Virus record (IMG/VR): IMGVR_UViG_3300032084_002789
Span: 1 to 40,325 of that record
Origin: a virus
Direction: 5' to 3' (one strand)
DNA: 40,325 nt
The notes beneath the pieces were generated by a model. The model was not told the DNA's origin, did not search any database, and was given only the letters and a program-made list of their open reading frames with translations. The translations under genes and the position numbers were made by a program. This document shows positions 6,082-39,077 of the stretch, in pieces; within the stretch, counting starts at the first letter, position 1, and each line of letters opens with the position of its first letter.

Positions 6082-6882
6082 TTATTTTAAATTGATATCG
6101 AACGGAAAATCATAATTAAAAAAGTCTATGTCTTTACCGTATATTTTTTCTACCATATCTTTGCAATATTGATTATAAAATAATTTGTATTCAGGTATTC
6201 CCACAGATAAGTCTTGCATATTGATTAAGCCGTTATGTTCACTAGTAAATCTAAAAGGAGCTACAGAACACGACGTGTCGCTATCTTTAGTTGTGTATTT
6301 ACCACTTTGATATGAGGGTTCTACTTCGTTGTCGTTGTAATCTAAATCAAGTCCGTGTGTTTTTTTTAATAAAGCTAAATCATCGACTATGTTCTCTATT
6401 TTTATAATAAAATCGCAATCAATCATATATTGAGGTAAAAAATGATGTTCTAAAAAACTCCTACTTTTACGGCCCCAACGAGTGCTGTTTCCTATTATAA
6501 TTAATTCTAAAAAAGACTGAAAAGATAGAGTAAGATTATTTTGCGCTTGATGTAAGTATTTAATAAAAGAAGAAACAGCTCTAGAATAAGGATTTCTAAC
6601 TAGTTGTATGTTAAAGAAATTTTTATAAAATTGCTTATCTTGATTTGGCATATGAGATAAAAAATCTGCTTTGTCTTTATGTGTCTGTTTTATATTTTTC
6701 GTATACTCATCTCTTTGTTTTATACAACTTCTATTGTGATCGTAGCTGTTAATGTGTATTAAAAACATTCTAGCTATTATAGAGCAACCAGCTTTTGGAG
6801 ACCAGTACATAGCTAGTTTATTTTTCGGGTCTGGTAAAACTCTTGGGCAATACTCAGATTCTTGAATAAAGTTATTTCTCAT
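6082..6882 (-). CDS. sulfotransferase family 2 protein
   Basis: 266 aa. The N-terminal phosphosulfate-binding loop (WSPKAGCSIIAR, residues 27-38) and the second PAPS-binding motif (VRNPYSRAVSSF, 95-106) identify a carbohydrate-type sulfotransferase, which moves sulfate from PAPS to a sugar hydroxyl. There is no signal peptide or membrane anchor, so it is cytoplasmic. It starts in an ATGA overlap with the large glycosyltransferase upstream, suggesting that the two act on the same glycan. The acceptor is unknown. The family could in principle act on a lipid or peptide, but the sugar-gene context favours a glycan. Confidence 0.85.
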   Translation of the reverse strand: MRNNFIQESEYCPRVLPDPKNKLAMYWSPKAGCSIIARMFLIHINSYDHNRSCIKQRDEYTKNIKQTHKDKADFLSHMPNQDKQFYKNFFNIQLVRNPYSRAVSSFIKYLHQAQNNLTLSFQSFLELIIIGNSTRWGRKSRSFLEHHFLPQYMIDCDFIIKIENIVDDLALLKKTHGLDLDYNDNEVEPSYQSGKYTTKDSDTSCSVAPFRFTSEHNGLINMQDLSVGIPEYKLFYNQYCKDMVEKIYGKDIDFFNYDFPFDINLK

Positions 6883-9344
6883 GATATTACTAAAGCTCCT
6901 ATGTATCGTTCTAAAGCGTGTTCAAATTGCAAATCCGGAATACCTTTTAATTTATATTTGCTATAAAGTTGCATAAAGTTAAAACAAGTACCGTCTTTAA
7001 TGAATTTTTGACTAGAAAAATCTATAGGACTGTTTAGGGATTGATTACTATATTCTTGCATATACCTATTAAAGATAGCGTCATCTTTCATACATTCTAT
7101 CCAAAAAGTATCATGTTTTTTAATGCTTGTTAATTGTTTTACTATTTTATCATAATCATCTACCAATGGTTTTAAATTAGATAGTTTTGATATAAAAGTA
7201 GTGCCTTGAATATACTTAAATTGTTTTTTGTGTAGGTTGTGAAAAATATCAGGTTCATTCTCCATTATTTTTCTATTTAAATCATCTGAGAGACAGTCTG
7301 TAGTAAATCTAGATGCTGTTAAAGTATCGTATTTATGTACGTCATTTATATAGAATATAGAGTGTAATATATTTTTCCAAGATTGATTATTTTTATTATG
7401 TATATAGGCTATTTGGGTATTTGTGTTTATAGTTGTGCTTGATGACTCATAGATATACTTTAACCCCTCTAAAAGACCTCCTATATCATATCCACAATTC
7501 TTTCTAAATATAACATATCCAAATTTCTTTAAATTTAGTATACTTTTCTCTAAATAGTTTTTAATATTAGGCCCAAAAACATTTACGTCATCACTACTTA
7601 TGCAAATCACTGGAACAAAATTACATTTTTGTTGTTGACGCACAATAAATTGATTTATTATATTTATGTAATAATCTATTTCAGTTTTAGATATATTATT
7701 AATATACAAAGATAAGATTATAAAATCTTTTTTAGTATTCCTAGAGGGATTGAACATAATCGGTTGGCTATAATTATCATTAATATATTTTGTATTTTTT
7801 TGCGTTAGATTAGGTAACACATTAATTGATAATTCTTGAAATTCTTTACGTATATCCTCATTGGTTTGTCCTTTTAAAATAAAATATGATTCTAGCTTAT
7901 TGGTGTCGTGCGATGTGTGTATATTATTTTCTATAACTATTATTTTTTTATTTAATAATAAAGCTTCTAATACAACTATAGGGCAAGGGTCACTAAGACT
8001 AGTTAATATAAAGTAATCTAATCTCTTAATATATTTGTAAGGATTGTCTGTATTAGGAACCCATAAGAAATTTGAGGGGATAGATGTATCATCATTTGGG
8101 TATAAAATTTGTAATTTTTCTTCAATTTTTTTACCGCCAATCCAAACAAAAATGTATTGCGGATTATCCCTAGCTAATTGCAATAATAGAATAGGATTTT
8201 TTCTTAAAGATAAATCTCCACACATGCCTATGACAGGCTTATCTTTATCTTCTATAATCAAATCACAACCCTCATCAGCTTTTCCTTGTATTATATTTTG
8301 CTTTGTAGTTGGTATAAATGGAGGATCAATTCTAATTTCTTTAAGATTAGGTTTATGCTTTAGAAATTCTTGTTTAATTTTTTCAGAGACAACTGAGATT
8401 GACTGAATGTTATCTATAGATTGTGTGTCTTGATGTCGACTCTGCATAGGTTTAGCGAAATCTTCATATGTTTCGTGTAAATGCACTATGGTTTTATTAT
8501 GCCAATAATTAAATTTATGTAAGTTATATAAATAATAATTTATTGAGTTGGAATATATCAATACAGGCTGAGTAGTTTCAAATATTTTTTTGAGTGATTC
8601 TATTTCGTTGTAGTGGTATAGTTTTGCTGGGTGGTTCGGTAAAATATTATTAGGAAATGGTTCCACTATGTATATATTTTTGTATATATCACTATCGTAT
8701 AAATAATCATAAAGATCATACAGATAAATGGGTGCTCCAGTAAGAGAGATATCATGATTAATTAGCAGTATACTATTCTTATTAATATGGCTATGTGAAA
8801 TATTATCTTTTTGTTGATATATTTCATCATAAGACATGCCCGTATAATATGTTCTATTTTCGTTTTGCCCGTGAGATATAAAATGCATACTAGCTTGAGC
8901 ATTACTCATAGCGGATAGATCAGGATTGTATAGCTTGTAAAGTCTAGCATCAAAATCAATAGGTAATAAATCTGATAGTTTTGTTGAATAAGCTCTGCGT
9001 TCTTGTTTACCATATTCAATATAATGAAGCTTAGCTAATAATTCTGTATTTATATTTTCTTTAGATAAGTCTGGATTTAAAGATAAGTATTTGTGCCAAT
9101 TGAAATCTTTAGGAACAAGAGTGTTAACATAATCTAATTTCATCTCAGGTTTTTTATTTATATTTTCAGTATGTATGTTCGAGTATTGTCTACCTTCATA
9201 TCTGCCATATTTAAGAAAGTGAGCTATTAGATGGTGTTCTTCTACGAAACCTAATCGCTCTAAATCGGAATTTAATTTTTTATAAACCCTCCAATCAAAA
9301 TCAGCTGGAAGATTTGCTCTGTCTTCATCTGTTATCTTAGACAT
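6879..9344 (-). CDS. three-part glycosyltransferase: N-terminal repeats, GT4 domain, RgpF-like domain
   Basis: 821 aa. Residues 12-55, 76-120 and 126-167 are three copies of a ~45-residue repeat with the pattern FDxxxYxxxNPDL...HFxxxGxxExRxY, found in front of many bacterial glycan enzymes. Next comes a GT4-like Rossmann pair: a Gly-containing NHDISLTGAPIYLYDL start near 190, MCGDLSLRKNPILLL in the second domain and EALLLNKKIIVIEN near the donor site. From about residue 545 to the end is a rhamnan-synthesis F-like domain (RKNCGYDIGGL, IHNKNNQSW). It probably adds two linkages to one growing chain. RmlC lies upstream (8-bp overlap) and a sulfotransferase downstream (ATGA overlap). Confidence 0.85.
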   Translation of the reverse strand: MSKITDEDRANLPADFDWRVYKKLNSDLERLGFVEEHHLIAHFLKYGRYEGRQYSNIHTENINKKPEMKLDYVNTLVPKDFNWHKYLSLNPDLSKENINTELLAKLHYIEYGKQERRAYSTKLSDLLPIDFDARLYKLYNPDLSAMSNAQASMHFISHGQNENRTYYTGMSYDEIYQQKDNISHSHINKNSILLINHDISLTGAPIYLYDLYDYLYDSDIYKNIYIVEPFPNNILPNHPAKLYHYNEIESLKKIFETTQPVLIYSNSINYYLYNLHKFNYWHNKTIVHLHETYEDFAKPMQSRHQDTQSIDNIQSISVVSEKIKQEFLKHKPNLKEIRIDPPFIPTTKQNIIQGKADEGCDLIIEDKDKPVIGMCGDLSLRKNPILLLQLARDNPQYIFVWIGGKKIEEKLQILYPNDDTSIPSNFLWVPNTDNPYKYIKRLDYFILTSLSDPCPIVVLEALLLNKKIIVIENNIHTSHDTNKLESYFILKGQTNEDIRKEFQELSINVLPNLTQKNTKYINDNYSQPIMFNPSRNTKKDFIILSLYINNISKTEIDYYINIINQFIVRQQQKCNFVPVICISSDDVNVFGPNIKNYLEKSILNLKKFGYVIFRKNCGYDIGGLLEGLKYIYESSSTTINTNTQIAYIHNKNNQSWKNILHSIFYINDVHKYDTLTASRFTTDCLSDDLNRKIMENEPDIFHNLHKKQFKYIQGTTFISKLSNLKPLVDDYDKIVKQLTSIKKHDTFWIECMKDDAIFNRYMQEYSNQSLNSPIDFSSQKFIKDGTCFNFMQLYSKYKLKGIPDLQFEHALERYIGALVIS

Positions 9345-9834
9345 TATTTAAACAACTACCTTTGTCTTTATTAGATATAATTTCTGGATTTATTGGCCAT
9401 TTAATATCAAAATCTTTATAACAAAACGCCTCATCTGTATTAGGATTGTATATATCTCCCTGCTGGTATAATACTACACTATCAACAGTTGCAAGAAAAG
9501 CATGACCACAAAAACTAGGGATATAAATACTATTTAGTTTTTTTGCATCTAATACCATACCAAAATATTGTCTGTATGTAGGACTGTCGGTTCTGAGATC
9601 TACACAAACATCATAGATTTGACCTTGAACACAGGTAACATATTTTGCATAAGGAGCCCTATGTATACCTCTTAAAACGCCTCTTTTTGAAAAACTATAG
9701 TTAACCTGAGCTATTTTAAATGAGTCTTTAATATGGGGATTTTTAAAAATTTCCGAAACAACACCCCTACTATCTAGATGTATATCAGGTTTTACCCAAT
9801 AGCAATATGGTATATGTGTTTTATTAATTTTCAT
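9337..9834 (-). CDS. rmlC: dTDP-4-dehydrorhamnose 3,5-epimerase-like protein
   Basis: 165 aa, a little shorter than the usual ~180. The cupin signature is clear: VLRGIH with His58 (catalytic base position), YVTCVQGQIYDVCVDLR with conserved DLR, IPSFCGHAF, VLYQQGDIY with the active-site Tyr region, and the closing DIKWP. RmlC epimerises C3 and C5 of dTDP-4-keto-6-deoxyglucose on the way to dTDP-L-rhamnose; relatives do single epimerisations. It is fused by an 11-bp overlap to the RmlB-like gene, so the pair likely works in sequence. No RmlA or RmlD is in the window, so the final sugar is uncertain. Confidence 0.88.
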   Translation of the reverse strand: MKINKTHIPYCYWVKPDIHLDSRGVVSEIFKNPHIKDSFKIAQVNYSFSKRGVLRGIHRAPYAKYVTCVQGQIYDVCVDLRTDSPTYRQYFGMVLDAKKLNSIYIPSFCGHAFLATVDSVVLYQQGDIYNPNTDEAFCYKDFDIKWPINPEIISNKDKGSCLNNV

Positions 9835-10816
9835 TCAGCATCCAATCGATAGTTTTCTGTAATGATTGATTAAAATCTATAGGCTGTTTCCATCCCATAT
9901 TTTGTAATTTAGACCCATCTAGACTATATCTCCTATCATGACCCGGTCTGCTTTTATTGAGATCTACATATTCTAATCTAGCAGGCTTATTCATTATTCT
10001 AGCTATTTCTTTTACCATGTCGTCATTATACATTTCTCTATCACCGACCACATTATAATGCTCCCCAGGTTTACCGTTTTTGAGCAAAAACAGAGTTGCA
10101 TTCGCAGCATTTCTAGCATGTAACCAATGTCTTTGTCCAACATACTCTACATTACCATGATTGTCTAGTTGGGCGTGAATCTTAACTGGTTGATTTTTAT
10201 GAATTAAATCTATAGCTAAAGCTATAAACTTTTCTTTGTGTTGCCTCTCTCCAAAAAGATTCATAGTATACGTATGTATAATTGGTAAATTATATGTATT
10301 GTGATAAGCAATACCAGCAGCACCAGCTCCTGCTTTACTTGCGCTATAAGGATTAGAAGGTCTCCATCTATCGTCTTCTTTAAAATCATAACCATCTGGA
10401 GCAGGACCAAACACTTCGTCTGTTAAATAATTTATAAACAAAGCTTTAGGAGAATATTTTCTATACCATTCTAATAAGTTTAATGTTCCCATAACATTAT
10501 CTTCAAAAAATTGTTTCGGATAATCGATACTTCTCGTAACATGACTATTAGCTGCTATATGCGCTACATAATCTACCTCTCCTATACTTTCTATAATATG
10601 AGGAGGAAAATCAAATTTAAGATCGTGATAAATTATTTTTATTCTTTCTGCATATTTTTGTACATGCAGACTATCTACTATTCTTCGCATATCCCCAACG
10701 TAAGTTAACCTACACAGGGCGATAATCTCCCAATCGGTATTGATCAAAGTTTCTTCTACAAAATGAGAACCTAAAAAACCAGCAGCTCCAGTTATTAGGA
10801 TTTTCTTTTTTGTCAT
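9824..10816 (-). CDS. rmlB: dTDP-glucose 4,6-dehydratase-like SDR enzyme
   Basis: 330 aa. The NAD-binding motif GAAGFLG is at 10-16, the Tyr157-x3-Lys161 pair sits in NPYSASKAG, and the TDE triad motif is at 132-134 (LTDEVFG), where dTDP-glucose 4,6-dehydratases carry their catalytic Asp-Glu. It removes water from dTDP-glucose to give the 4-keto-6-deoxy sugar. The neighbour to the 3' side is RmlC, the next enzyme in the pathway. The 5' end overlaps a glycosyltransferase gene (ATGA). Another NDP-hexose 4,6-dehydratase specificity (CDP, GDP) cannot be excluded, but the TDE motif and RmlC partner favour dTDP. Confidence 0.88.
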   Translation of the reverse strand: MTKKKILITGAAGFLGSHFVEETLINTDWEIIALCRLTYVGDMRRIVDSLHVQKYAERIKIIYHDLKFDFPPHIIESIGEVDYVAHIAANSHVTRSIDYPKQFFEDNVMGTLNLLEWYRKYSPKALFINYLTDEVFGPAPDGYDFKEDDRWRPSNPYSASKAGAGAAGIAYHNTYNLPIIHTYTMNLFGERQHKEKFIALAIDLIHKNQPVKIHAQLDNHGNVEYVGQRHWLHARNAANATLFLLKNGKPGEHYNVVGDREMYNDDMVKEIARIMNKPARLEYVDLNKSRPGHDRRYSLDGSKLQNMGWKQPIDFNQSLQKTIDWMLNEN

Positions 10817-12414
10817 ATGTACAGCACCTTCTGTTTAAGGTTATGAGGTAAAACTCCCGATAAAATTCTTTCCCAGCTATGAGTATAGGTTGGGTCGTGA
10901 TTCTTGAAATAACCAGATTCTAAATTTTGATATTCAGATAAAATAGAAATGTTTAGATCCTCTAAAACATTTACAAAAAAATTATATTTAGCTAAAAACA
11001 TTGTACCTGCAATAAAATATGTATTATCAGAACTTAATTTATATTTAGAACAGATCTCGGATAGTATCGGTTCATTTATTTGATCCATTTGCATCTTGTA
11101 ATTATTAAGACCTACCATACAAGCTTCATTTTCATTCTCTATCATAGTAATATTGTGTAGTAGATTGTCAACCAAGCCCATGAAAACCATTCTACGAAAA
11201 CCATGATTTGTTTTAGTATGCAGTTTTAATATATAATCATATTCGTCTTTTTTGTGGTGGTTGTGAAGACATTGCATGAATGGGCCTATATCCGCTCCTT
11301 TGTTAGGTACTATGTACGGTTTAATATTTAATGATTCAATATTATCGTCCGATGTAATAAAGAAGTCTACATCAATAAATGTATAACTTTGTAATTTGTT
11401 TATTACAGCTTTTATATCTTCTATATGTTTATCAGAAGTATTACCAAGATGTATACAACATAGCAATTTTCTAATACTATCAGGAACTTTATTACTAATT
11501 TTATTAAAATCATAAACTTGAGAGTTTAATATAGGTATCTTATGGTGGTCTGTTAGTATCTTATGTTGTAAAATATTATAAGTAAATAATTCTTTCCAAA
11601 ATATTTCTTTTTCGGTAGAAATATAAAAAAAATAACCAATATCAATATTGTTTTCGATACAAAACTTTGTTATATAATATTCAGAATTATGTCTATTTAA
11701 ATTTATAATATTAATTATTTTTGAAAATAATGTCTTTTTAAAAATAAAAAAATTATTGTTTAGACCGTAAAAAGGTTTATTATTCATCATGATAGAATAT
11801 TTATCATGAATGGAGAAAATATTATATTTAGAATTTAGGTATGTTTGTAAGAATTTATCAATATTTTGATATACCACATTGGTGTTATCTGCATATAGTA
11901 TATCCTCAAAAGATTTAGCTTTAATAATATCAATAGTGCTTTTTAAAGAAAATGTATTTTTATAATATTCTCTTATTTTCCTATAATATTTTGAATTAAT
12001 TTCACCATATATAACAATAAATATGTTTTCTATTGGTATGCTTTGAGAAATATTAGATAAAGATAATAATGCTGTATCTGTAGATAAATCCGAATCTAAA
12101 TAACAATAATACACACAAGCCGTATTACTTGTTTTATAAAAATGTTTTATGTCTATGTGAGGACTTTCAAACCACTTTTTATATTGTGCTCGATTTTCTA
12201 GATAATATTGAAGACTATCATCTTTGGTCTTAATGAACGAGGTGTCTGATAAAACCCAATTTAATTTGCTAAAAAATAAACCATAATCAAAATTATCGTC
12301 TAAGATGCAGGGGTGTGTAAATCTACCGTCGTGTATGCAATCTTCTTGAAATTGTTTAAAGTTAGATGCACAACCATAATATTCATTATAGAATGCAGTA
12401 TCAAAAGTTTCCAT
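10813..12414 (-). CDS. RgpF-like glycosyltransferase with divergent N-terminal region
   Basis: 533 aa. The C-terminal third resembles rhamnan-synthesis F proteins: IVPNKGADIGPF, a YDYILKLHTKTNHG segment and AGTMFLAKYNFF, the same order of blocks seen in the 309-aa RgpF-like protein at 38148-39077. The N-terminus (FYNEYYGCASNFKQF, DGRFTHP) looks like one degenerate copy of the NPDL-type repeat found in the 821-aa enzyme. The middle is Asn/Ile/Tyr-rich and unassigned. It likely transfers a 6-deoxyhexose, because rmlB and rmlC follow directly. There is no membrane segment. The exact linkage and donor are inferred from context only. Confidence 0.75.
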   Translation of the reverse strand: METFDTAFYNEYYGCASNFKQFQEDCIHDGRFTHPCILDDNFDYGLFFSKLNWVLSDTSFIKTKDDSLQYYLENRAQYKKWFESPHIDIKHFYKTSNTACVYYCYLDSDLSTDTALLSLSNISQSIPIENIFIVIYGEINSKYYRKIREYYKNTFSLKSTIDIIKAKSFEDILYADNTNVVYQNIDKFLQTYLNSKYNIFSIHDKYSIMMNNKPFYGLNNNFFIFKKTLFSKIINIINLNRHNSEYYITKFCIENNIDIGYFFYISTEKEIFWKELFTYNILQHKILTDHHKIPILNSQVYDFNKISNKVPDSIRKLLCCIHLGNTSDKHIEDIKAVINKLQSYTFIDVDFFITSDDNIESLNIKPYIVPNKGADIGPFMQCLHNHHKKDEYDYILKLHTKTNHGFRRMVFMGLVDNLLHNITMIENENEACMVGLNNYKMQMDQINEPILSEICSKYKLSSDNTYFIAGTMFLAKYNFFVNVLEDLNISILSEYQNLESGYFKNHDPTYTHSWERILSGVLPHNLKQKVLYI

Positions 12415-12521
12415 TTATGCTCTAATTATAGCTATCGATATTTGGTTATGACTGCTTTAATTATAGTTGTATTTATGTAAAAACCTATTGAAAACTATAT
12501 CTATTTAGCTATGTTTCTTAA
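12415..12521 (-). promoter_or_regulatory. intergenic region with two CTATAATTA boxes
   Basis: This gap separates the membrane/protease cassette from the sugar operon. On the minus strand two similar blocks occur 35 bp apart: CTATAATTAAAGCA (TATAAT at 12465-12460) and CTATAATTAGAGCA (TATAAT at 12430-12425). Both have a perfect -10 hexamer but no good -35 at 16-18 nt. A promoter for the glycosylation operon is plausible, perhaps needing an activator or the phage sigma factor. Confidence 0.4.
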
Positions 12522-17400: not shown

Positions 17401-18603
17401 TTAGTCAATACTTATAGTGGTATTAGGATCTGGTTGCCTTGAAATTTTTGGGTTTACACCAGGATGGATCTCCGTTTGAATGAAAGGTCCGTTACCTTTA
17501 GCTCCTTTACCCAGTTGGCCGTTACCATTGCCTTCTTGTGGAGCAGCTGCAAATAGAGGAGAACACGTACAGGATCCAGAAAGTATTTCTATGAAAACTT
17601 TTGATGGGCATTTTTTCTGAGAACAAGAATTAATAAAGAGCGCAGCTTTCTCCATAAACCTTGCAATAGATTTTGCACACCCTTCATTACCAGCGGCTGC
17701 TACAGCTGCTTCGATTGCTGCTGTATAGTCTAGACCTGCAAAAGGATTTGATTGCCTATCATTGTAATAACCTTTACTAAGAGTTACCTCTTTTGATGCA
17801 TATGCTTTGACTTCACAAGCATTTGCTGGAGGAGCTATACCTGTAAGATATTGCCAAGATAAATTAGACCCAGGACAAACAGCATAACCTGGCAGAGCTC
17901 CTTTTGGGTGTAATTGCCATACTGATCTAGTAGGCGCACAACCGCCTTTAATATTTTTCGGCTGTTGGCAACATAAGGTGTAGCCGCCACCAATAGCTGA
18001 TCCAGTATAGCCGTTTGGACATCGCCCTCTAGTTATTTGCATTTCCTGACCAGTGCCGTTGGTTAAGGTATTTTCTCCTTGACAAAATGTTTTTACATTA
18101 GGAGGCGTTGCTCCTACTGGTGTAATACTGCTAAGACCTGGGTATCCATTAGTATCGGTATCATCATCAGTAGCAGTAAAGCAATGTATAGTTATATTAA
18201 CAACGCAATTGCATTGTATGCTTGCAAATCTAGGAGGATCATCTGCACCCGCCCCTTTTGCACTACAATTTAAACCCATAACATTTGCAGCATTATACAA
18301 CTCACTTAAGAATTTTTTCAATAGTTGCGGATTGTCTCTATGTCCTCGAATCACTTTTAGCACTAATGTGCCACTACACAAAGCTCCTAAACCTCTAGGA
18401 TTGCATATAGCTCCTGCTGGTTTGGGTTCACATGTTACATTAGGAGGCACAGCATAACTTATAGGTAAGCATTCATCATAACTACAACCGACTTCAACTT
18501 CTCCTTTAGTTCCGTTTATTTCTTTTAATTTTTCACCATTAAGATCACAATAACTGTGTGTTACTGGCGTATCTTTATTTAGTATTATTGTAACACTACC
18601 CAT
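17401..18603 (-). CDS. Cys-rich structural-like protein, paralog B
   Basis: 400 aa with more than 25 cysteines, including CC and CNC pairs, and little Lys in the core. It aligns with the next upstream gene through shared blocks: YNAANxxGxNCxAKG (103-117), a Cys cluster (QCNCVVNITIHCFT), a CxGxNTL ... GxxLCC block and a NPFAG block. The C-terminus is Gly/Asn/Pro-rich (GNGNGQLGKGAKGNG). There is no signal peptide, so the cysteines would be oxidised only after release, or bind metal. The gene is flanked by membrane, protease and glycosyltransferase genes. I infer a tail-fibre or capsid-decoration protein, possibly glycosylated; no known family recognised. Confidence 0.75.
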   Translation of the reverse strand: MGSVTIILNKDTPVTHSYCDLNGEKLKEINGTKGEVEVGCSYDECLPISYAVPPNVTCEPKPAGAICNPRGLGALCSGTLVLKVIRGHRDNPQLLKKFLSELYNAANVMGLNCSAKGAGADDPPRFASIQCNCVVNITIHCFTATDDDTDTNGYPGLSSITPVGATPPNVKTFCQGENTLTNGTGQEMQITRGRCPNGYTGSAIGGGYTLCCQQPKNIKGGCAPTRSVWQLHPKGALPGYAVCPGSNLSWQYLTGIAPPANACEVKAYASKEVTLSKGYYNDRQSNPFAGLDYTAAIEAAVAAAGNEGCAKSIARFMEKAALFINSCSQKKCPSKVFIEILSGSCTCSPLFAAAPQEGNGNGQLGKGAKGNGPFIQTEIHPGVNPKISRQPDPNTTISID

Positions 18604-18621
18604 ATGATTAAATTTCCTTTT

Positions 18622-20416: not shown

Positions 20417-20929
20417 TTACTTTGCTGGATAATTTTGGGAAGTAGGTTTACTAGCATTAGCTTTAAATGTAATACTACCAGGAATAGCAGCGTTAGATCT
20501 AGCAGCATTGTCGTTACCATAACTATCTGAACTAGTAGCAGGATAACTTAATGCAAAATCTCCAGTAAAGATGTTAAATTTACCGGCTCTAATAGCAGTA
20601 GCTGTTAGAACAGTGCTGGCACTTTCTATATAATTAATACTTCTTACATATGCTGGGTATATGCTACCATTACGCAAAGGTCTTTTAGATCCTACAGGAT
20701 CTGATGATCTTTGAGCTATTAAAGTATTGGTATCTTTACCAAAAGCATATCCTAGAATAGCTTTTTGCGCATCGTCGCCATTATGAGGAGTTGAGTCAAA
20801 TACATGAGTCTGATCATAATAATTAGCTGGTTTGTGGATTTTAACATTAGCAGATCCTGAGGAACCTGCAGCGATAGTTGTTTTATTAGACCCTTCTGTT
20901 GACCCAACAACATAGTGAATACTTGCCAT
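20417..20929 (-). CDS. probable virion structural protein, 170 aa
   Basis: Ala/Ser/Thr-rich soluble protein with no Cys, many short beta-like stretches (SASTVLTATAIRAGKFNIFTG) and a small-residue composition common in capsid-decoration or tail proteins. A strong AAGGAG ribosome binding site lies 6 nt before the ATG and a GGTGTATA motif 54 nt upstream, as expected for a highly expressed gene. It opens the run leading to the Cys-rich paralogs. No family recognised; the structural call rests on composition and context. Confidence 0.6.
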   Translation of the reverse strand: MASIHYVVGSTEGSNKTTIAAGSSGSANVKIHKPANYYDQTHVFDSTPHNGDDAQKAILGYAFGKDTNTLIAQRSSDPVGSKRPLRNGSIYPAYVRSINYIESASTVLTATAIRAGKFNIFTGDFALSYPATSSDSYGNDNAARSNAAIPGSITFKANASKPTSQNYPAK

Positions 20930-30108: not shown

Positions 30109-30132
30109 GTGTAACATATTTTATTTTACACC
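30109..30132 (-). promoter_or_regulatory. hairpin and GGTGTAAA box upstream of the 250-aa gene
   Basis: GTGTAA (30131-30126) and TTACAC (30114-30109) form a 6-bp AT-rich stem with an 11-nt loop in the minus-strand RNA. GGTGTAAA (30132-30125), one mismatch from the recurring octamer, overlaps it and the stop codon of the upstream gene. Confidence 0.35.
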
Positions 30133-31148
30133 ACATCTAAATCTTTAGACAGGTTTAGAATTGCTCCTTCAGGAATTTTCTTAGTATAATTTTTGCCATC
30201 GATTTCGTATGTTATGGTCAAGTACTTTCTTAAACCAGGTGCGGGATCTCCGCATAGAGAGTTGTCTATTAATATTTTATCAACTCCTCCTTGATTCAAT
30301 AAATCAATGGCTGGTTTAGCGTCATTAATTATACCAAAAAATGCCTTATGAACATTTTCTTTTACGATCTCCTTTTCTGTCATAAAAAAACTCCATATGG
30401 TTTCTGGGTCTTTAATTGGATGATAAACATGTTTACTTATAGGTCTAATTTGCTGATTACAAAGAGTTTGATGACATATCCATCTTTCATAAGATATATA
30501 TATAGACATATCATCTATTTCTTCTGGTTTTTTATATTGAGATACTTCATAACCTAAATATTTAAGTATAGTAGCAAATTTAGTCTCTACGTATATTTTA
30601 TTAGCATGTGGTATTTCTTGGATATGTTTAATAATCGCTTGAGCAGCATCATCCGAGATCATGTTACTACACAACGGTGTGCATGCTGCGAAATTTAATG
30701 TGGTATAAATATTTTTAATCAAAGGATGTTTTCTTTGAACATCAAACCACCAGTAATGAAATTTTTTATACTTTTCATCAAAAATAGTATTAGCAGAAAT
30801 AATACCATTATGATTCTTTAGTAGTTGGTCATCAATTTGAAAAAAATCTAAAATATCGGAAGCTGCATATGTATCATATTCTAAAATTAGATACTGTTTA
30901 GCTCTTTTATCGGGGTTTGATAAATACCAATACAGAAAAATATTATCAGAACCCCAATACCATATTTCTCCACCTCCCCAATCTGATATGTGTCTATAAT
31001 CTAAAAAATCATAAAAATAATTAATAAATTCATTTTGATGAATTGCATGGACCTTATACCCTCTAGAATTATTAACAATAGAGTTATAAGTTAGATCTGT
31101 TAATTTATCTTTGTTGCTATATATAAAAATAATAGCTAAATCATCCAT
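30126..31148 (-). CDS. glycosyltransferase-like protein with FGDP-type C-terminal domain
   Basis: 340 aa. The N-terminal part looks like a GT-A fold: an IIFIYSNKDKLTDLTYNSI start, DWGGGEIWYWGSDN, and QYLILEYDTYAASDI, where EYDTY sits at the DxD position. The last ~70 residues (DKILIDNSLCGDPAPGLRKYLTITYEIDG) form a beta domain with a GDPAPG motif, seen attached to enzymes of sugar loci. It overlaps the GT4 gene by 8 bp and lies in a glycosyltransferase cluster. Family and donor cannot be named with confidence. Confidence 0.65.
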   Translation of the reverse strand: MDDLAIIFIYSNKDKLTDLTYNSIVNNSRGYKVHAIHQNEFINYFYDFLDYRHISDWGGGEIWYWGSDNIFLYWYLSNPDKRAKQYLILEYDTYAASDILDFFQIDDQLLKNHNGIISANTIFDEKYKKFHYWWFDVQRKHPLIKNIYTTLNFAACTPLCSNMISDDAAQAIIKHIQEIPHANKIYVETKFATILKYLGYEVSQYKKPEEIDDMSIYISYERWICHQTLCNQQIRPISKHVYHPIKDPETIWSFFMTEKEIVKENVHKAFFGIINDAKPAIDLLNQGGVDKILIDNSLCGDPAPGLRKYLTITYEIDGKNYTKKIPEGAILNLSKDLDVV

Positions 31149-32223
31149 ATATTTTTGATCCTATAATCTTTGCACTTTGTTCCCATGAAAATTTATCTGC
31201 CGTTTTCAATCCATTTGAATTACTCTTTATATTATTTTTATACACATATCTCATGTAATCAACACCTTGATCAATCACTTTTTTATCTAAATTAGCCCAA
31301 TTTCCTGTGCTATGAAAAAATTTACCATCTTCAGCTATTTCCATATCTGTGATATTAATTAAATAACTATTATTACTATTAGCATATTCTGTATGAGCTG
31401 AATAATTTGTTAAAATAATAGGTTTATTCATAGCCATAGTTTCTAAAGCCTCGTTATTCCACCCCTCAGCCCTAGCTGGATAAATACCACAATCAGTATA
31501 AGCCATAATTCTAGCTAATTGTTTTTGAGATGGTAATCTCGGAATCATATGTATTTTATCCCCCAGTTTGGTGTTTTTGTACATATTTTGCCACTGTCCG
31601 TTTTCTTTATCTGTTAAAAACGGATTAGTATTAGCCATCCATAACTCTACATTATCTTTAGGTTCGAAAGCTTCATTGAATATGTGTACTAAGATATCAT
31701 GACCTTTGCGTATCTCCCATTTGCCAGCATTAAAGAATACATAATTTGGAGAAACATCAGCTTCATCTATAGAGATATTTTTATCAAATACATTTGTATC
31801 AACACCACAAGGGCATACAGTAATTTTTTTCTCTTCTATACCATTATTAATTAAGATGTTTTTTGCCCATGAACTTGGAGTAAATATGATATCAGAAATA
31901 TCGTATCCAATTTTCTCTACATCAGAAATTGAATCTATTTCAAAGAAACTATAAGTAGCATATATACTATTTTTAGTATGAGGCTTAATCACTAAATCAT
32001 GTGGATGCCATATTTTTAAACATGGGTTTGAAGGTGAATAGATTTGTTGTTGATTTTTTATATCTGAAATAATATTCTCTGTGTTCCAATGTTTTTCTGC
32101 TTCTACCTGACCGACAGGAAACAAAGAAATATTATTATTCTTTCTAAGTGCTTTCCATAAATTATAACCACTGATACCATAACCTACAGTATTAATAGCG
32201 CAAGACAAAGATAGTTTATTCAT
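31141..32223 (-). CDS. GT4 glycosyltransferase
   Basis: 360 aa. A retaining GT-B enzyme: an N-terminal Gly-rich ACAINTVGYGISGYNL (acceptor side), DIIFTPSSWAKNIL ... VCPCGVDTNVF, FNAGKWEIRKGHDIL starting the donor domain, and the donor-binding YPARAEGWNNEALETMAM with the Ex7E pattern. The start overlaps the stop of guaC (ATGA). It is the second clear GT4 in the window, the other being the middle domain of the 821-aa protein. Sugar unknown. Confidence 0.9.
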   Translation of the reverse strand: MNKLSLSCAINTVGYGISGYNLWKALRKNNNISLFPVGQVEAEKHWNTENIISDIKNQQQIYSPSNPCLKIWHPHDLVIKPHTKNSIYATYSFFEIDSISDVEKIGYDISDIIFTPSSWAKNILINNGIEEKKITVCPCGVDTNVFDKNISIDEADVSPNYVFFNAGKWEIRKGHDILVHIFNEAFEPKDNVELWMANTNPFLTDKENGQWQNMYKNTKLGDKIHMIPRLPSQKQLARIMAYTDCGIYPARAEGWNNEALETMAMNKPIILTNYSAHTEYANSNNSYLINITDMEIAEDGKFFHSTGNWANLDKKVIDQGVDYMRYVYKNNIKSNSNGLKTADKFSWEQSAKIIGSKIYG

Positions 32224-33336: not shown

Positions 33337-34173
33337 TTAATCTACTATCATAATTTGACTTGGGTTATAGTACATTCTAAAGTCATTGTGTAAAATTTTT
33401 AAATTTTTATGTAGCATGACATGCTCGCAACTTTCTCCTGAGTAATTATTTAATTCATAGCATGCTTTATATATTGCTGCACCACCAAATCCGCTAAATA
33501 CAGATATAGGATATGATCCTATGGGTAAATCAAAATATGGAAACCACATCATTTCATAGTATTCCCAACTATTAAGCCTAAAAGCAAAAGAATCATAATT
33601 CCTATAATGATCTTGTGATTTAGAAGGAAAATTTATATAGGAATTACCACATATGGCAGATATATTTTCATTACTTGCTAACCAACCAAAGCTATTTAAT
33701 ATTCCGTTTATGCTGATATCCAAAAAGTCCAAATCAATAACTATATAGTAATCGAAGTCACCTTTTACAGCATTGGATAAATTATAGCATTTATTTCTAG
33801 CATTAGCCATATTTGTTGTTCTGACTTCTGATTTGGATAAAGGCATGTAGGATGTTTTAATTTGCTCACTATACAAGTTAAAATTCTCATAACCCGGTTG
33901 AGATATTTTTTGTTTTATTAATGCGGGCGTGTCGTCTATTGAGTCATTTTCATATATATATACTTTTGAGTCATGATGGAAATTCTCTAACAGTAATCTA
34001 AGTTGTCTTAAGCTATAATTAAATTCTTGTTTGATATTTCTTGCTAAAGAAAAAACTGCTATTTTTTTATCAGTAGCAAAGTTCTTACCACTCTCTAATT
34101 GATTTTGATATAACTCAGTGAATTCTTTGCTTGTGGGAAAAATTTCGTTTATATCGTAAATTAAATTATTCAT
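33337..34173 (-). CDS. CAP59-like (GT69-type) glycosyltransferase
   Basis: 278 aa. KIAVFSLARNIKQ, then VYIYENDSIDDTP, NMANARNKCYN, the acidic DYYIVIDLDFLD, and WFPYFDLPIGSYPISVFSGFGG follow the order seen in the fungal capsule mannosyltransferase family (CAP59/CMT1) and in bacterial relatives. The acidic cluster around DLDF is the likely metal/donor site. No membrane anchor, unlike the fungal enzymes. It probably transfers mannose or a related hexose. That would fit with the GDP-mannose 3,5-epimerase encoded nearby, though this link is inference. Confidence 0.75.
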   Translation of the reverse strand: MNNLIYDINEIFPTSKEFTELYQNQLESGKNFATDKKIAVFSLARNIKQEFNYSLRQLRLLLENFHHDSKVYIYENDSIDDTPALIKQKISQPGYENFNLYSEQIKTSYMPLSKSEVRTTNMANARNKCYNLSNAVKGDFDYYIVIDLDFLDISINGILNSFGWLASNENISAICGNSYINFPSKSQDHYRNYDSFAFRLNSWEYYEMMWFPYFDLPIGSYPISVFSGFGGAAIYKACYELNNYSGESCEHVMLHKNLKILHNDFRMYYNPSQIMIVD

Positions 34174-34706: not shown

Positions 34707-34798
34707 TTATATATTGATTGTTTGTAACGAATTATACCGTCTTGAAAACCTTTATAAGCCACCCAGATAAATAAAAAAGCCATCATATTTTCTAACAT
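34703..34798 (-). CDS. 31-aa membrane-type peptide
   Basis: A short gene in the apparent gap between the deoxyribosyltransferase-like gene and the 173-aa gene. It reads MLENMMAFLFIWVAYKGFQD then GIIRYKQSIYK: one hydrophobic stretch (MMAFLFIWVAY) followed by a basic tail. Its start lies 7 bp inside the end of the upstream gene and its stop makes an ATGA overlap with the next start, the standard junction here. That argues for translation. It could be a tiny membrane peptide; function unknown. Confidence 0.65.
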   Translation of the reverse strand: MLENMMAFLFIWVAYKGFQDGIIRYKQSIYK

Positions 34799-36250: not shown

Positions 36251-36519
36251 TCTGATTTTTTAGCTTTCCAGAAACCTTTAGGACATTCTTGATCAGCCCA
36301 TGCTAATTTATTCATAAATTCTTTTCTATTTGTTAAATTACAACCACATATATTGCATGTCGCGTCCTCACTCTTCGGCTTTTTGCTGTAGTGTTCACAC
36401 GAAGTACATATATTATATCTTTCTAGAATCTCCTCTTTGGAGCATGTAGGAAAGCCTTCTATACAATGCCAAAAAAGAGAGTAAAAAAATCTAGATATTC
36501 TTTTAATTTGTTTGATCAT
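36247..36519 (-). CDS. small Cys-rich zinc-ribbon-like protein, 90 aa
   Basis: Eight cysteines. The pattern CTSCEHYS ... CNICGCN ... DQECPKGFW forms two CxxC knuckles plus single Cys residues, likely a zinc fold. The N-terminus is hydrophobic and basic (KRISRFFYSLFWHCI), but too short for a sure anchor. The gene overlaps the epimerase gene by 17 bp. Such small ribbons occur next to glycosyltransferase genes in aquatic phages in my recollection; function unknown. Confidence 0.7.
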   Translation of the reverse strand: MIKQIKRISRFFYSLFWHCIEGFPTCSKEEILERYNICTSCEHYSKKPKSEDATCNICGCNLTNRKEFMNKLAWADQECPKGFWKAKKSD

Positions 36520-37510
36520 TTTGGGTTTGTTTTTGAATCCATTCGTAAGTAAGCGTAATACCTTCTAATAAATTATATTTCGGTTCCCAGTTTAGTTTTT
36601 CTTTAATTAATCTATTATCGGAATTTCTACCATTGACACCCGTAGGACCTGGTATATTATTAACAGTGATATTTTTACCAGATAAAGTTGCAATCATTTT
36701 TGCAAAATTATTTATGCTGATCATTTCTTCAGATCCGATATTAACAGGACCCATAAAATTATCTGATCTGATTAATTTAATTGTTGCGTCTACACAGTCA
36801 TCAATATATAAAAAAGATCTGGTTTGTTTACCTGTTCCCCAAACTTCAATAGTATCTTCAGAAGAAGCCTCTGCTATTTTTCTACACAAGGCGGCTGGGG
36901 CTTTTTCTTTTCCGTCCTTATAAGTTCCCTCTGGGCCATAAATATTGTGATATCTAGCAACTCTTACATTTAAATTATGATTACGATTGTAAGCAAAATA
37001 TATTCTTTCACTAAAAAGTTTTTCCCATCCATATTCACTATCTGGTGCGGCTGGATATGCTGATGATTCTTCGCATTTAGGATTGTCTGGATCCATTTGG
37101 TTATATTCTGGGTATACACAAGCACTACTACTATAAAAAACTCTTTTAGCATTAAATAGCGTAGCGTATTGGCATGTTAATAGGTTGACAGTAGCAGAAT
37201 TCGTCATTACATTAGCGTCGTTATCTCCTGTAAAAATATATCCAGCACCACCCATATCAGCAGCTAATTGATAAACTTCGTCAAAACTATTTTTATCATC
37301 TTTATGAGATTCTTGATTTGGGGCTCGCATTGCTTTTTGCATCACACTTGGATATCTTAAATCTCCAACAATAAAATCATCAGCTAGGCTTTCGCTAAAC
37401 ATAGGCTTTTTAAGGTCTACAGATCTTACCCAAAAACCTTCTTTTTTTAGTCTTTTTACTAAATGACTACCTATAAAACCACCTCCGCCAAATACTAAAG
37501 CTGTTTTCAT
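36503..37510 (-). CDS. GDP-mannose 3,5-epimerase-like SDR enzyme
   Basis: 335 aa, against ~377 in plant GME. NAD loop GGGGFIG is at 8-14 and the pair Tyr160-x3-Lys164 in SEYGWEKL. The GME-specific residues are present and correctly spaced: Cys131 (SSACVYPEY) and Lys203 (EKAPAALCRK), 72 residues apart as in Arabidopsis (Cys145, Lys217). AADMGGAGYIF, HNIYGPEGTYKDG, TRSFLYIDDCVD and GPTGVNGRNSDN also match. It turns GDP-D-mannose into GDP-L-galactose or GDP-L-gulose. Upstream of it in the message is a sulfotransferase, so an L-sugar-containing sulfated glycan is a reasonable guess. Confidence 0.85.
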   Translation of the reverse strand: MKTALVFGGGGFIGSHLVKRLKKEGFWVRSVDLKKPMFSESLADDFIVGDLRYPSVMQKAMRAPNQESHKDDKNSFDEVYQLAADMGGAGYIFTGDNDANVMTNSATVNLLTCQYATLFNAKRVFYSSSACVYPEYNQMDPDNPKCEESSAYPAAPDSEYGWEKLFSERIYFAYNRNHNLNVRVARYHNIYGPEGTYKDGKEKAPAALCRKIAEASSEDTIEVWGTGKQTRSFLYIDDCVDATIKLIRSDNFMGPVNIGSEEMISINNFAKMIATLSGKNITVNNIPGPTGVNGRNSDNRLIKEKLNWEPKYNLLEGITLTYEWIQKQTQNDQTN

Positions 37511-38136
37511 TATTTTATACCTTTATAATAATTAAATCGATTAAAATCTTCTTCATAAAATTCTATAGCCCTATCTAATAGTGCTTTTCTTTTGAAATAT
37601 TTTTGATAAGGGTAGTGCTCTGATTTATTTAATAGTGGCAAATCATCATCAATGCAAATTTTATCTTTAATAAATTCCCAATCTTGCTGTATCGTTTCGA
37701 ATTTACCTATAAAATCTAAAGACCTATTTATATCTTTTTGCCATCTGTCTACACAGACATGCAGCGGAACTAAATGTAACATTATAGCCATATCCGTTCT
37801 TTGCCATAAATCAGTTTTTTGAATATCTTGAGACACTACGTTAAACATATCGGAAAGTTTCCAATCTAACTTATGTCCTAATTCTACTAAATCTAATATA
37901 TTATTCATTTCTTTGTGTATATTTTTCCATCTCCAAGCGCCCAATATAGAAGCTAGTCTATCTAAAGGGTTTCTAACTATAGTCCAAGTAAAAATATTAT
38001 TAATATTTATTCTTTTTACAGATTTAATATCGTGATAGCCTTGCCTATTATAACATTGTAAAAAATCATATTTGTTAACAATAGCGATTTGACTTGTTCC
38101 AGCTGTTTTAGGTATATGAAAAAAAATACCTTTCAT
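37510..38136 (-). CDS. sulfotransferase family protein
   Basis: 208 aa. FFHIPKTAGTSQI at 5-17 is the classic 5'-phosphosulfate loop and WTIVRNPLDRLAS at 51-63 the 3'-phosphate motif, both needed for PAPS. No signal or membrane segment. It shares a one-base overlap with the epimerase downstream and lies after an RgpF-like transferase. It is unlike the other sulfotransferase in sequence beyond the motifs, so the two probably act on different positions or acceptors. Confidence 0.88.
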   Translation of the reverse strand: MKGIFFHIPKTAGTSQIAIVNKYDFLQCYNRQGYHDIKSVKRININNIFTWTIVRNPLDRLASILGAWRWKNIHKEMNNILDLVELGHKLDWKLSDMFNVVSQDIQKTDLWQRTDMAIMLHLVPLHVCVDRWQKDINRSLDFIGKFETIQQDWEFIKDKICIDDDLPLLNKSEHYPYQKYFKRKALLDRAIEFYEEDFNRFNYYKGIK

Positions 38137-38147
38137 TATTTTCCCTA

Positions 38148-39077
38148 CTATTTTATTGTTATGGATGATCGGGTTAAATATTTATAATTTACTATTGGTT
38201 TATTATCAAAGTGCAACCATTGTATCTGTATAGATCTAGTATTTTTATGTATAATTTTACCATACATATTAACATCTTCTAATAAATAACAATAATCATT
38301 ATAAGTTATGCGTAAATGTAATTTTTTATATTGTTTATTATAAATAACATATGAATCTAATATAGTTGGCAGTATCTTTAACTTTTGATAGGTTACTAGA
38401 TAGCCAAAAATTCTTTCAAGAGAGTGACAAAATGTGCCTTGTTTCGCATATCTGTCATCAACTTTCCCTGTTTCTGTTTTTAGCAATTTGTCTAAAGCAT
38501 TATAGTACTTGCTCAGAATATTTTTATAGACTTGGGTTTTACCCATAAACATTGAACCAGCAGCAAATGCGTGCATAGATAATGTTTCATAATTAATATT
38601 CAATATTTTACAAAGTTGCAGTATCTTATTGTGGTTGTATCCTTCATTATTTTTTAATGTTAAAAATTTGACAGAACACATCCCTACATGTTCTCTACTT
38701 AATAAATTTAAGTTTTTATGTAAATCTTGAGCATTGCCAATTAGACTATCGATAAGCACTGTACCCCAATCAACATGCATTTTTGTTCCCCAGTTAGATT
38801 TTTTTGAATGAACTTTTATGAAAGATGGAAATTTTTGATAATCTAAATCTTTAATTTGTTTTAAAAAAGGAGCAATATCAACACCGTAATTATCATGATA
38901 GTCAATTTTATGAAAAATGAATTTATGTTTATTTAATAAATTATTTAATGTTTGATTATTTTTATGTCTTTTACCTAAAGAAAGATCTATTGGTAGGTTG
39001 CATCTATATGCTAGTTTAATTATATCCTCTATACGATCAATATCATACATAGAGCATAGTATTATTGCTTTATTCAT
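38148..39077 (-). CDS. RgpF-like glycosyltransferase with C-terminal module
   Basis: 309 aa. NYGVDIAPFLKQI, FIKVHSKKSNWG and FAAGSMFMGKTQVY match the block order of rhamnan-synthesis F-type proteins, also seen in the C-terminal domains of the 533- and 821-aa enzymes. Residues from about 240 on (SYVIYNKQYKKLHLR ... MYGKIIHKNTRSIQIQWLHF) resemble weakly the C-terminal module of the two GT2-like genes. It lies directly after the large Cys-rich gene, which may be its acceptor. Confidence 0.8.
   Translation of the reverse strand: MNKAIILCSMYDIDRIEDIIKLAYRCNLPIDLSLGKRHKNNQTLNNLLNKHKFIFHKIDYHDNYGVDIAPFLKQIKDLDYQKFPSFIKVHSKKSNWGTKMHVDWGTVLIDSLIGNAQDLHKNLNLLSREHVGMCSVKFLTLKNNEGYNHNKILQLCKILNINYETLSMHAFAAGSMFMGKTQVYKNILSKYYNALDKLLKTETGKVDDRYAKQGTFCHSLERIFGYLVTYQKLKILPTILDSYVIYNKQYKKLHLRITYNDYCYLLEDVNMYGKIIHKNTRSIQIQWLHFDNKPIVNYKYLTRSSITIK

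Follow-up and report, generated by a model that had tools for sequence, protein, structure and literature searches.

Gene content of the window

The window analysed here is the 40,325 nt at positions 1 to 40,325 of IMG/VR virus record IMGVR_UViG_3300032084_002789, part of an uncultivated water-dwelling phage with a genome of at least 194 kb. It contains 15 sugar-gene candidates, all on the minus strand, which cover 15,927 of 40,325 bp (39.5%; short gene overlaps enter the sum twice); a preliminary description had put the share at roughly one third. These comprise 10 glycosyltransferase candidates, two sulfotransferases, RmlB, RmlC and a GDP-mannose 3,5-epimerase (GME) (Table 1). The earlier count of about ten glycosyltransferases of at least five types holds up, with five types recognised. 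Five of the 10 exceed curated Pfam cut-offs, four have weaker support (both GT2-like ORFs, the probable GT-A enzyme and the RgpF-like candidate at 10813-12414), and the ORF at 33337-34173 was recognised by eye only, with neither a Pfam family nor a PDB match. The five other enzymes named at that stage are all backed by profile or PDB matches.

Table 1. Features of the window and the evidence for their assignment
Feature	Position	Strand	Evidence or remark
dCMP-deaminase gene, hotspot flank	5556-6023		best PDB match deoxycytidylate deaminase, 6.9e-19
Sugar-cassette hotspot	6024..12521	-	between dCMP-deaminase gene and conserved 82-aa gene
Sulfotransferase ST1 (PF03567)	6082..6882	-	E 3.3e-11
GT4 glycosyltransferase, 821 aa	6879..9344	-	41.6 bits, above curated Pfam cut-off
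RmlC, dTDP-4-dehydrorhamnose 3,5-epimerase	9337..9834	-	E 8.8e-41; best PDB match 3.5e-25
RmlB, dTDP-glucose 4,6-dehydratase	9824..10816	-	best PDB match 7.4e-50
RgpF-like glycosyltransferase candidate	10813..12414	-	E 4e-6 to 38148-39077
Conserved 82-aa gene, hotspot flank	12522-12770
Cys2 and Cys1, paralogous Cys-rich proteins (400 and 410 aa)	17401..19854	-
170-aa fast-evolving conserved protein adjoining block B	20417..20929	-
GT25 glycosyltransferase	20994..21740	-	E 1.2e-21, above curated Pfam cut-off
GT2-like glycosyltransferase	21737..22681	-	20.3 bits, below cut-off 23.3
GT2-like paralogue, Lys-rich N-terminus	22684..23757	-	E 1e-24 to 21737 ORF
GT60-type polypeptide alpha-GlcNAc-transferase homologue	23765..25057	-	PF11397, E 1e-66
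Probable GT-A glycosyltransferase	30126..31148	-	Foldseek E 6e-4, TM 0.36-0.38, model pLDDT 63
GT4 glycosyltransferase	31141..32223	-	above curated Pfam cut-off
Glycosyltransferase candidate	33337..34173	-	by eye only
GDP-mannose 3,5-epimerase (GME)	36503..37510	-	best PDB match plant GDP-mannose-3,5-epimerase, 3.7e-88
Sulfotransferase ST2 (PF03567)	37510..38136	-	RNPLDR motif
RgpF-family glycosyltransferase	38148..39077	-	PF05045, 35.8 bits vs cut-off 25
C-terminal end of 2711-aa Pro/Thr- and Cys-rich giant protein	39084..40325	-	continues beyond window

Both sulfotransferases exceed the PF03567 cut-off (44.2 bits vs 22); ST1 carries SPKAGCS and RNPYSR, which we take to be PAPS-type motifs, and a sequence search of the PDB at E 0.1 gave nothing for ST2. 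RmlB keeps the TDE and YxxxK motifs. Among SDR enzymes the GME ORF is closest to GME, the next enzyme class matching only at about 1e-24, and the Cys, Tyr/Lys and Lys that we assume to be catalytic are all kept in the alignment. The GT25 ORF matches PHROG "glucosyltransferase" families. The C-terminal part of the 821-aa GT4 enzyme looks RgpF-like by eye only, with no similarity to the RgpF ORF by BLASTP, and a separate hmmscan run gave no family for the RgpF ORF at 38148-39077.

The parent genome as a whole carries about 36 sugar-related ORFs, among them NeuB, nucleotide-sugar enzymes and seven sulfotransferase-family ORFs (two in the window, four in G001 and one found by a local profile only). 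It also contains a prolyl-hydroxylase-like PF13640 gene, found in only 4 of 17 records.

The large glycan-building gene set stands; its described interleaving with virion-like genes is not confirmed. In a PHROGs scan of 24 ORFs of the 6082-39077 region (20417-20929 was among those left out), the only virion-type match at E 0.001 or better was a Clp/head-maturation-protease-like ORF at 25700-26374; the terminase and tape-measure genes are on the other strand, 25-52 kb to the left of the window. At E 0.01 neither Pfam nor PHROGs gave a match for Cys1 or Cys2, and BLASTP found no relative of them in eight related records. The third Cys-rich ORF, at 39084, is the cut-off end of the 2711-aa protein (G002:25310-33445) and has a LamG-like match below cut-off.

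Turnover of the sugar blocks

The sugar genes at 6.1-12.4 kb (block A) occupy a hotspot that is 6,499 bp long in the window, empty (4-242 bp) in G009, G011, G012 and G025, and 1.1-23.3 kb long in the remaining 16 distinct contigs with both flanks, where its gene content varies. At least one recognised sugar gene is present there in 15 of 21 contigs, and four of 21 are empty. The RgpF-like candidate of this block has orthologues of 35-36% in near relatives G003-G006. Block B, comprised of GT25, two GT2 and GT60 genes, is kept in the same relatives (48-78% for GT25, GT2a and GT60), whereas G007, G008, G009 and G012 lack it as a block. For the adjoining 170-aa protein the AlphaFold model (pLDDT 42) is too poor for use. 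The preliminary description had also raised the possible absence of the genes from relatives with identical virion proteins; this was checked in part, and the sugar blocks turn over among relatives with about 90% identical RNR.

The GT60 enzyme and Pro/Thr-rich proteins

The GT60 ORF scores 226.3 bits against a curated PF11397 cut-off of 21 and carries DSHHRF and GEE motifs. DSHHRF is invariant in 10 of 10 aligned GT60 sequences and DSH, which we take to be the metal-binding motif of the family, in 11 of 11. PF11397 was matched in 12 of 17 and 5 of 18 lineage records and in none of 14 controls. No solved structure is related to the ORF by sequence (best E 0.67, unrelated). According to the accessible part of PMC8724618, GT60 enzymes are polypeptide alpha-GlcNAc-transferases with which the mucin-type O-glycans of protists begin, and hydroxyproline of Skp1 is modified by an enzyme related to these mucin starters. 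The phage enzyme shares PF11397 above cut-off and the DSH motif with the Skp1 and Trypanosoma cruzi mucin enzymes described there and, like the cytosolic Skp1 enzymes, is without a membrane segment; unlike them it sits in a phage, where its acceptor is putative.

Long Pro/Thr-dense stretches of mucin/extensin-like type are present in the 2711-aa protein, which reaches 88% P+T over 50 aa and has Pro/Thr runs at 389-579, 2029-2099 and 2231-2339. Relative G006 additionally encodes a 1669-aa protein with 681 Pro and 424 Thr. Linkage was assessed on other viral contigs in flanks of up to 10 kb, with Pro/Thr-rich ORFs defined by at least 60% P+T over 50 aa and RNR loci as control; the 81 GT60 contigs are taken as viral, phage identity not being established for each. 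Pro/Thr-rich ORFs lie near GT60 at 41 of 81 loci (68 ORFs, 1,494 kb) and near RNR at 3 of 80 (3 ORFs, 1,366 kb); RNR loci represent the replication module, so part of this contrast may reflect proximity to structural genes. Their density by distance from GT60 is 9.9, 3.0, 4.4 and 1.3 per 100 kb in successive 2.5-kb bins, and 57 of the 68 share the strand of GT60. With GT60 sequences clustered at 70% identity, 10 of 22 clusters show the linkage; at 60% identity it stems from 4 of 14. In the window's own GT60 cluster no Pro/Thr-rich ORF lies within 10 kb at any of five loci; the distance is about 14 kb in the window and in G006. Per contig, Pro/Thr-rich ORFs occur in 10 of 12 lineage contigs that have GT60 and in 5 of the 9 that lack it, which is short of significance (Fisher p 0.33); none was seen in G010 and G024, which have GT60.

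A tail-fibre/head-decoration domain was found in one of 10 scanned Pro/Thr-rich proteins, from relative G009 (E 2e-19, 4e-13); the other nine gave no convincing named virion family. Contigs in which a terminase or tape measure was recognised hold 30 Pro/Thr-rich ORFs by hand count, 21 of them codirectional with that gene. The giant protein of the window clade is encoded on the other strand from the tail module, and neither sign of a virion role was found for the window's own protein. A signal-like N-terminus, at a set hydropathy, was found in none of 58 Pro/Thr-rich ORFs, eight of which are cut at a contig end.

Possible acceptors of the proposed glycan

RgpF, RmlB/C, NeuB and GT25 are frequent in bacterial surface-polysaccharide clusters and would fit a role during infection in which lipopolysaccharide, capsule or S-layer sugars of the host are remodelled and superinfection is blocked; a phage could borrow host export machinery for this, and PMC7029224, in its accessible part, reads hypervariable glycosyltransferase islands of pelagimyophages in this way. 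A glycan on the host is nevertheless unlikely here. A membrane-like segment is absent in 208 of 210 sugar-family ORFs, none of 25 contigs has a credible polytopic membrane protein (flippase, polymerase, GtrA/GtrC type), and the lipid-carrier sugar-phosphate transferase profile PF02397, the one lipid-carrier family searched, matched 0 of 21 records. GtrABC or O-antigen export traits were accordingly not found by PF02397 and the polytopic-ORF scan, and the GT60 family is of polypeptide type. A division of labour, block B acting on phage proteins and blocks A and C on the host surface or on small-molecule sugars, would agree with the different evolution of the blocks: B is retained or lost as described above, and A is a swap hotspot, whereas the GT4 gene at 31141 has a relative in 8 of 8 records compared. 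It too seems doubtful, as enzymes of all blocks alike are without signals and membrane segments and the host target is without positive support.

PF00303, which we take to be the thymidylate synthase/dCMP hydroxymethylase family, matched 0 of 21 records vs 9 of 14 controls, so the phage hydroxymethylase of T-even-type DNA glucosylation was not found (TET/JBP-type oxygenases lay outside the search); GME, RmlB/C and sulfotransferases would moreover be superfluous for DNA modification. Decoration of modified bases of the phage genome is therefore very improbable, although DNA-base glycosylation is an established role of phage glycosyltransferases (PMC12619734, accessible part) and a dCMP deaminase and a nucleoside-deoxyribosyltransferase-like gene (below cut-off) lie nearby.

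Several virus-encoded glycosyltransferases and donor-sugar enzymes without membrane segments, as in cytoplasmic virion glycosylation, are present. The enzymes look soluble, and no credible polytopic protein, PF02397 or PF00303 gene was found, which makes phage proteins a likelier acceptor than DNA or the lipopolysaccharide of the host. The preliminary description is supported in proposing a phage-made, possibly sulfated glycan beyond the needs of DNA glucosylation; of its two sites, virion or host, the virion is favoured. The data suggest a more specific acceptor than it named, in Pro/Thr-rich and not Cys-rich stretches.

Proposed pathway

We see about an even chance that the phage encodes a cytoplasmic glycoprotein pathway in which GT60-started, extended and partly sulfated glycans are built on Pro/Thr-rich fibre-like proteins and swapped by cassette. 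Soluble enzymes would supply unusual sugar donors: RmlB/RmlC may yield 6-deoxy-4-keto-hexoses and GME GDP-L-galactose or GDP-L-gulose, with NeuB, elsewhere in the genome, adding to the supply. Giant fibre-like phage proteins would receive their first sugar, probably alpha-GlcNAc, from the GT60-type enzyme, which would attach it to Thr/Ser (or hydroxyproline) within their Pro/Thr-rich stretches. GT2/GT25/GT4/RgpF-type enzymes may then lengthen the glycan and sulfotransferases cap it. The coat, presumably displayed on the virion and of benefit to the phage, could be exchanged by cassette at the hotspot, like serotype switching. A narrower reading, possible but rather less than probable, is that planctomycete-type large phages make giant Pro/Thr-rich virion fibres as GT60-primed mucin-/extensin-like O-glycoproteins, containing L-galactose or deoxy-sugars, sulfated and cassette-swapped, mucin-type O-glycosylation having been invented or captured by phages. 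This reading includes a phage prolyl hydroxylase making hydroxyproline in some genomes.

If such a pathway operates, virus fibres would share chemistry with protist mucins, acceptor identity would gain a genetic handle, and the roughly 39% of a 40-kb region spent on sugar genes would be explained. Soluble O-GlcNAc initiators, sulfotransferases and rare-sugar enzymes would be candidates for biotechnology.

Comparison with known systems

Few cases of phage-made virion glycans are known and, to our knowledge, mycobacteriophages have no large nucleotide-sugar set. A GT60-started phage pathway on Pro/Thr-rich mucin-like stretches was not found in the open-access literature (subscription papers and preprints lay outside the search). 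In mycobacteriophages virion proteins are glycosylated and phage glycosyltransferases implicated (Freeman 2023, cited in the accessible part of PMC12619734), but these are few, e.g. two in phage Maravista (PMC11256854, accessible part). Closer in gene content is capsid glycosylation of chlorovirus PBCV-1, for which the accessible part of PMC7019647 gives at least eight putative virus glycosyltransferases that lack ER signal peptides, nucleotide-sugar enzymes encoded by the virus and, in the reference list, a viral prolyl 4-hydroxylase. PBCV-1 differs in being a eukaryotic virus with N-linked glycans on its major capsid protein; that part of the article does not mention GT60, and the amino-acid analysis of PBCV-1 particles in its reference list reportedly found no hydroxyproline.

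The host-recognition cluster of pelagimyophages, likewise large aquatic phages, is also a hypervariable island with glycosyltransferases, and the term "sulfotransferase" is absent from the paper (PMC7029224). That island sits in the structural region between VrlC and gp14, together with tail fibres, whereas the window hotspot adjoins dCMP deaminase and RNR genes on the strand opposite TerL and tape measure.

Phage genome and relatives

The window comes from IMG/VR as a virus record of 31% G+C in which the main genes all lie on the minus strand. Two related records extend it: G001 (165,940 b) overlaps it over 1-22288 with 99.99% identity and continues 143.6 kb leftward, and G002 (36,240 b) overlaps it over 13775-40325 with 99.98% identity and continues 9.7 kb rightward, giving by coordinates a phage genome of at least about 194 kb. 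The PhoH, RNR, HNH and sigma factor genes of the window, its dCMP deaminase (top PDB match 6.9e-19), the N-terminus of a RecA-type recombinase with which it opens (top PDB match 2.4e-104, over a RecA fusion), and the terminase large subunit (TerL) and 4205-aa tape measure encoded in G001 are all consistent with a phage. No close isolate was found among 50,697 phage records, matches to PhoH (3,563 records) and RNR (1,174 records) falling below 60% identity. RNR relatives are common in viral contigs, with 556 encoding stretches, the best 80 of which were used. The moraphage lineage, compared by its description, was set aside as a candidate for this lineage; its main text mentions neither planctomycetes nor sulfotransferases, and gives predicted hosts as mainly Bacteroidota (PMC12619734).

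Coordinates of individual features in the window and in related records
Feature	Record	Position	Observation
Sugar-family ORF	window	6879-9344	the 1 of 15 window sugar ORFs with a hydropathy segment; RgpF domain set aside (seen by eye only, no BLASTP match to the 38148 ORF)
Trypsin-like protease	window	13385-14239	hydrophobic N-terminus; no BLASTP match in 8 relatives compared
Weakly papain-like ORF (below cut-off)	window	14379-15305	73-92% conserved in 8 relatives; adjoined by small proteins with one membrane-like segment
Cys-rich pair	window	17401-19854	paralogues, about 30% identity; no match in 8 relatives compared
170-aa protein	window	20417-20929	folded as a test of virion-like character; model pLDDT 42
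GT60	window	23765-25057	PF11397, E 1e-66
Conserved 219-aa ORF	window	25041-25700	DeoC-like by eye; no Pfam or PHROG match
Weaker glycosyltransferase candidate	window	30126-31148	predicted fold GT-A-like, TM-scores low
IMP dehydrogenase/GMP reductase-like gene	window	32220-33335	within sugar block; common to all 8 relatives compared
Weaker glycosyltransferase candidate	window	33337-34173	unassigned (glycosyltransferase by eye only); no family or PDB match
Nucleoside-deoxyribosyltransferase-like ORF and nearby macro-domain-like ORF	window	34176-36200	the former under Pfam cut-off and at 71-94% identity in 8 relatives
Third Cys-rich ORF	window	39084-40325	last part of the 2711-aa protein that G002 encodes in full
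Subtilase-family protease	G001	9643-10572	PF00082, E 3e-58; relatives in G006, G007, G008, G009, G012
Volactin-family actin-like protein (L089)	G001	10882-11886	PF25216, E 3.8e-67; relatives in G006, G007, G008, G009 at 78-97% identity
DUF1501, DUF1549/DUF1553/PSCyt1 and DUF1559-prepilin-type genes, planctomycete-type (L091, L090)	G001	51662-52957, 53580-55952, 25084-26091	
TerL and tape measure	G001	91-118 kb, plus strand	25-52 kb left of window
GT60	G005	20016-21311	intact
GT60	G006	101134-102418	in pieces
Pro/Thr-rich protein	G009	82375-84675	strong PHROGs match (tail fibre, head decoration)

Sugar genes and the apparent exchange of the first block

The large glycan-building gene set of the preliminary description is genuine, with 15 candidates covering 15,927 of the 40,325 bp of the window. 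Its ten glycosyltransferases are a fair count of candidates; five of them exceed a curated threshold. Local profiles, seeded with the window phage's own genes, recognise 36 ORFs of sugar-related families in G001 and the non-overlapping part of G002, including five GT4, four GT2-type, two GT25, GT11, GT92, NeuB (E 4.6e-61), six PF03567-type and one Stf0-type sulfotransferase, and one prolyl-hydroxylase-like ORF. Two of the seven sulfotransferase ORFs in the window and four in G001 are assigned by family match, and that at G001 89454 by local profile only. Since the profiles were built from the window phage, sugar-gene counts in relatives are lower bounds. Relatives found by the GT25 scan are confined to the window clade.

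In this uncultivated lineage of phages, the first block of sugar genes forms a glycan module that can be swapped. Its flanks, dCMP deaminase and an 82-aa gene (or, where the latter is missing, the next conserved gene), are kept in 21 distinct contigs, counting the window and G001 once, G005 and G006 once, and leaving aside G002 and G019, which lack a marker. Between the flanks 4 of the 21 are empty (4-242 bp), in 15 one or more sugar genes are recognised, and in two (G023, G024) there are unrecognised ORFs only. Content ranges from ST-GT4-RmlC-RmlB-RgpF in the window and GT4-SDR-SDR-RgpF in G005/G006 to NeuB with sulfotransferases in G013 and a block of 23 kb in G010. Where the RNR is complete, in G003, G004 and G005, it shares 90-93% identity with that of the window, but the SDR enzymes in this block of G003-G006 reach no more than 22-29% identity with the window RmlB, and the best matches of RmlB (67%) and the GDP-mannose 3,5-epimerase (64%) lie elsewhere in the G009 genome, at 180-183 kb. 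Judged from these gene sets and identities, the interval looks like a hotspot at which cassettes are exchanged, much as at serotype loci. Long stretches of G005 and G006 share 99.6-99.98% identity, but this falls to 80-93% at 16.5-28 kb of G005, where GT60 and the second sugar block lie; the differing state of their GT60 genes may reflect recombination, loss or an assembly fault.

Possible acceptors of the glycan

Three destinations may be weighed, namely DNA, an exported glycan and a phage protein. Modified DNA would call for a hydroxymethyl base, and the usual maker is missing, PF00303 (the thymidylate synthase/dCMP hydroxymethylase family) being found in 0 of 21 lineage records, many of them fragments, as against 9 of 14 controls. 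Export of the glycan could use host exporters; the phage brings no recognised machinery of its own, since PF02397 (lipid-carrier sugar-phosphate transferase) was found in 0 of 21 records versus 10 of 14 controls and no convincing polytopic membrane protein is encoded in any contig: one of the four matches is the tape measure, and the other three are short ORFs of doubtful status. By a hydropathy test (a 19-residue segment of at least 1.6), 208 of 210 sugar-family ORFs in 24 contigs minus G002 and G005, the window being excluded, lack such a segment. By exclusion, a phage protein made in the cytoplasm would be the simplest remaining acceptor. The reading with the best support is putative self-glycosylation, with Pro/Thr-rich proteins of the phage as acceptors, and we regard it as about evenly balanced between right and wrong.

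The GT60 gene bears on this reading of self-glycosylation. According to PMC8724618, CAZy GT60 comprises the polypeptide alpha-GlcNAc-transferases with which protists initiate mucin-type O-glycans, and a related enzyme modifies hydroxyproline in Skp1. Scanning with an alignment of ten GT60s gave at least 590 viral relatives, the best 80 of which, with locus L008, make up 81 loci. A Pro/Thr-rich ORF (at least 60% P+T over 50 aa) lies within about 10 kb at 41 of these 81 loci versus 3 of 80 RNR loci, and at 300 bp or less at 19 of the 81. Across the same 81 loci the density of such ORFs drops with distance from GT60, 57 of 68 neighbours share its strand, and after dereplication a neighbour is found in 32/64 clusters at 90%, 10/22 at 70%, 4/14 at 60% and 2/4 at 50%. 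None of the five loci of the window's own GT60 cluster (L004-L007, L238) has a Pro/Thr-rich ORF within 10 kb. Within the lineage, co-occurrence per contig is not significant (Fisher) in a table that keeps incomplete contigs, leaves G021 and G026-G034 outside, and omits W (the window), G001, G002 and G005 as overlaps, duplicates or fragments, and hence the window's phage. Among the 39 GT60 contigs that reach 50 kb, 31 contain the pattern TPTPT; this count covers GT60-bearing contigs only and is given no weight as proof.

By eye, several of the neighbours combine fibre-protein-like starts with TPTPTP tracts. Among ten Pro/Thr-rich proteins scanned against PHROGs, the G009 protein has the one strong named virion match, a second matches a tail fibre weakly (E 0.0019) inside its Pro/Thr tract, and the remainder match unnamed or unrelated families or nothing. 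G009 (55-130 kb), G011, G014, G015 and G025 carry 7-9 Pro/Thr-rich ORFs per contig; those of G009 all share a strand with terminase and tape measure. Of 58 Pro/Thr-rich ORFs examined for a signal-like N-terminus, eight are cut off at the 5' end. In the open-access literature searched we found nothing linking phages to GT60 or on mucin-like phage fibres.

The hydroxylase-like family PF13640 has matches in 4 of 17 records (G001, G006, G007, G016). Read by eye, the G001 protein at 15380-15961 keeps an HAD...H...R pattern; among solved structures it comes closest to prolyl 3- and 4-hydroxylases (E 1.7e-6 and 1.2e-5). A hydroxyproline route would be possible, though not general across the lineage.

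Virion-like and Cys-rich genes

The interleaving of virion-like genes with the sugar genes, as first proposed, was not borne out: among the 24 of its ORFs that were compared with PHROGs, a single one, Clp/head-maturation-protease-like, gave a virion-type match at E<=0.001, and TerL and tape measure lie outside the window. Three stretches of the 2711-aa protein are dense in Pro/Thr, and a LamG-like match reaches 26.7 bits, just under the 27.6 cut-off. Against G006, identity is 80-81% in two long central parts and 36% in the Cys-rich C-terminal part, which would be consistent with a shaft that is conserved and a tip that diverges. Upstream lies another giant protein rich in Pro/Thr, 1669 aa long in G006 and incomplete in G002, and between the two are an FGE-like protein (below cut-off) and one small protein.

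Host and additional genes

Orthologues of all three kinds of planctomycete-type gene in G001 (DUF1501, PSCyt-type and DUF1559-prepilin) also occur in G006 and G008. In one DUF1501 scan, which carries the host assignment, all three confirmed loci in genome contigs lie in MAGs with planctomycete titles, at 41-44% identity. Kuenenia and Singulisphaera, to which these titles point, are planctomycetes. The host phylum is likely Planctomycetota. No paper on a planctomycete phage was found in the open-access literature searched.

The region of the papain-like ORF is possibly a lysis-type module. Near the nucleoside-deoxyribosyltransferase-like ORF lies an ORF that by eye resembles a macro domain (PHROG 335 "phosphatase"), and these genes may possibly serve nucleotide or ADP-ribose counter-defence.
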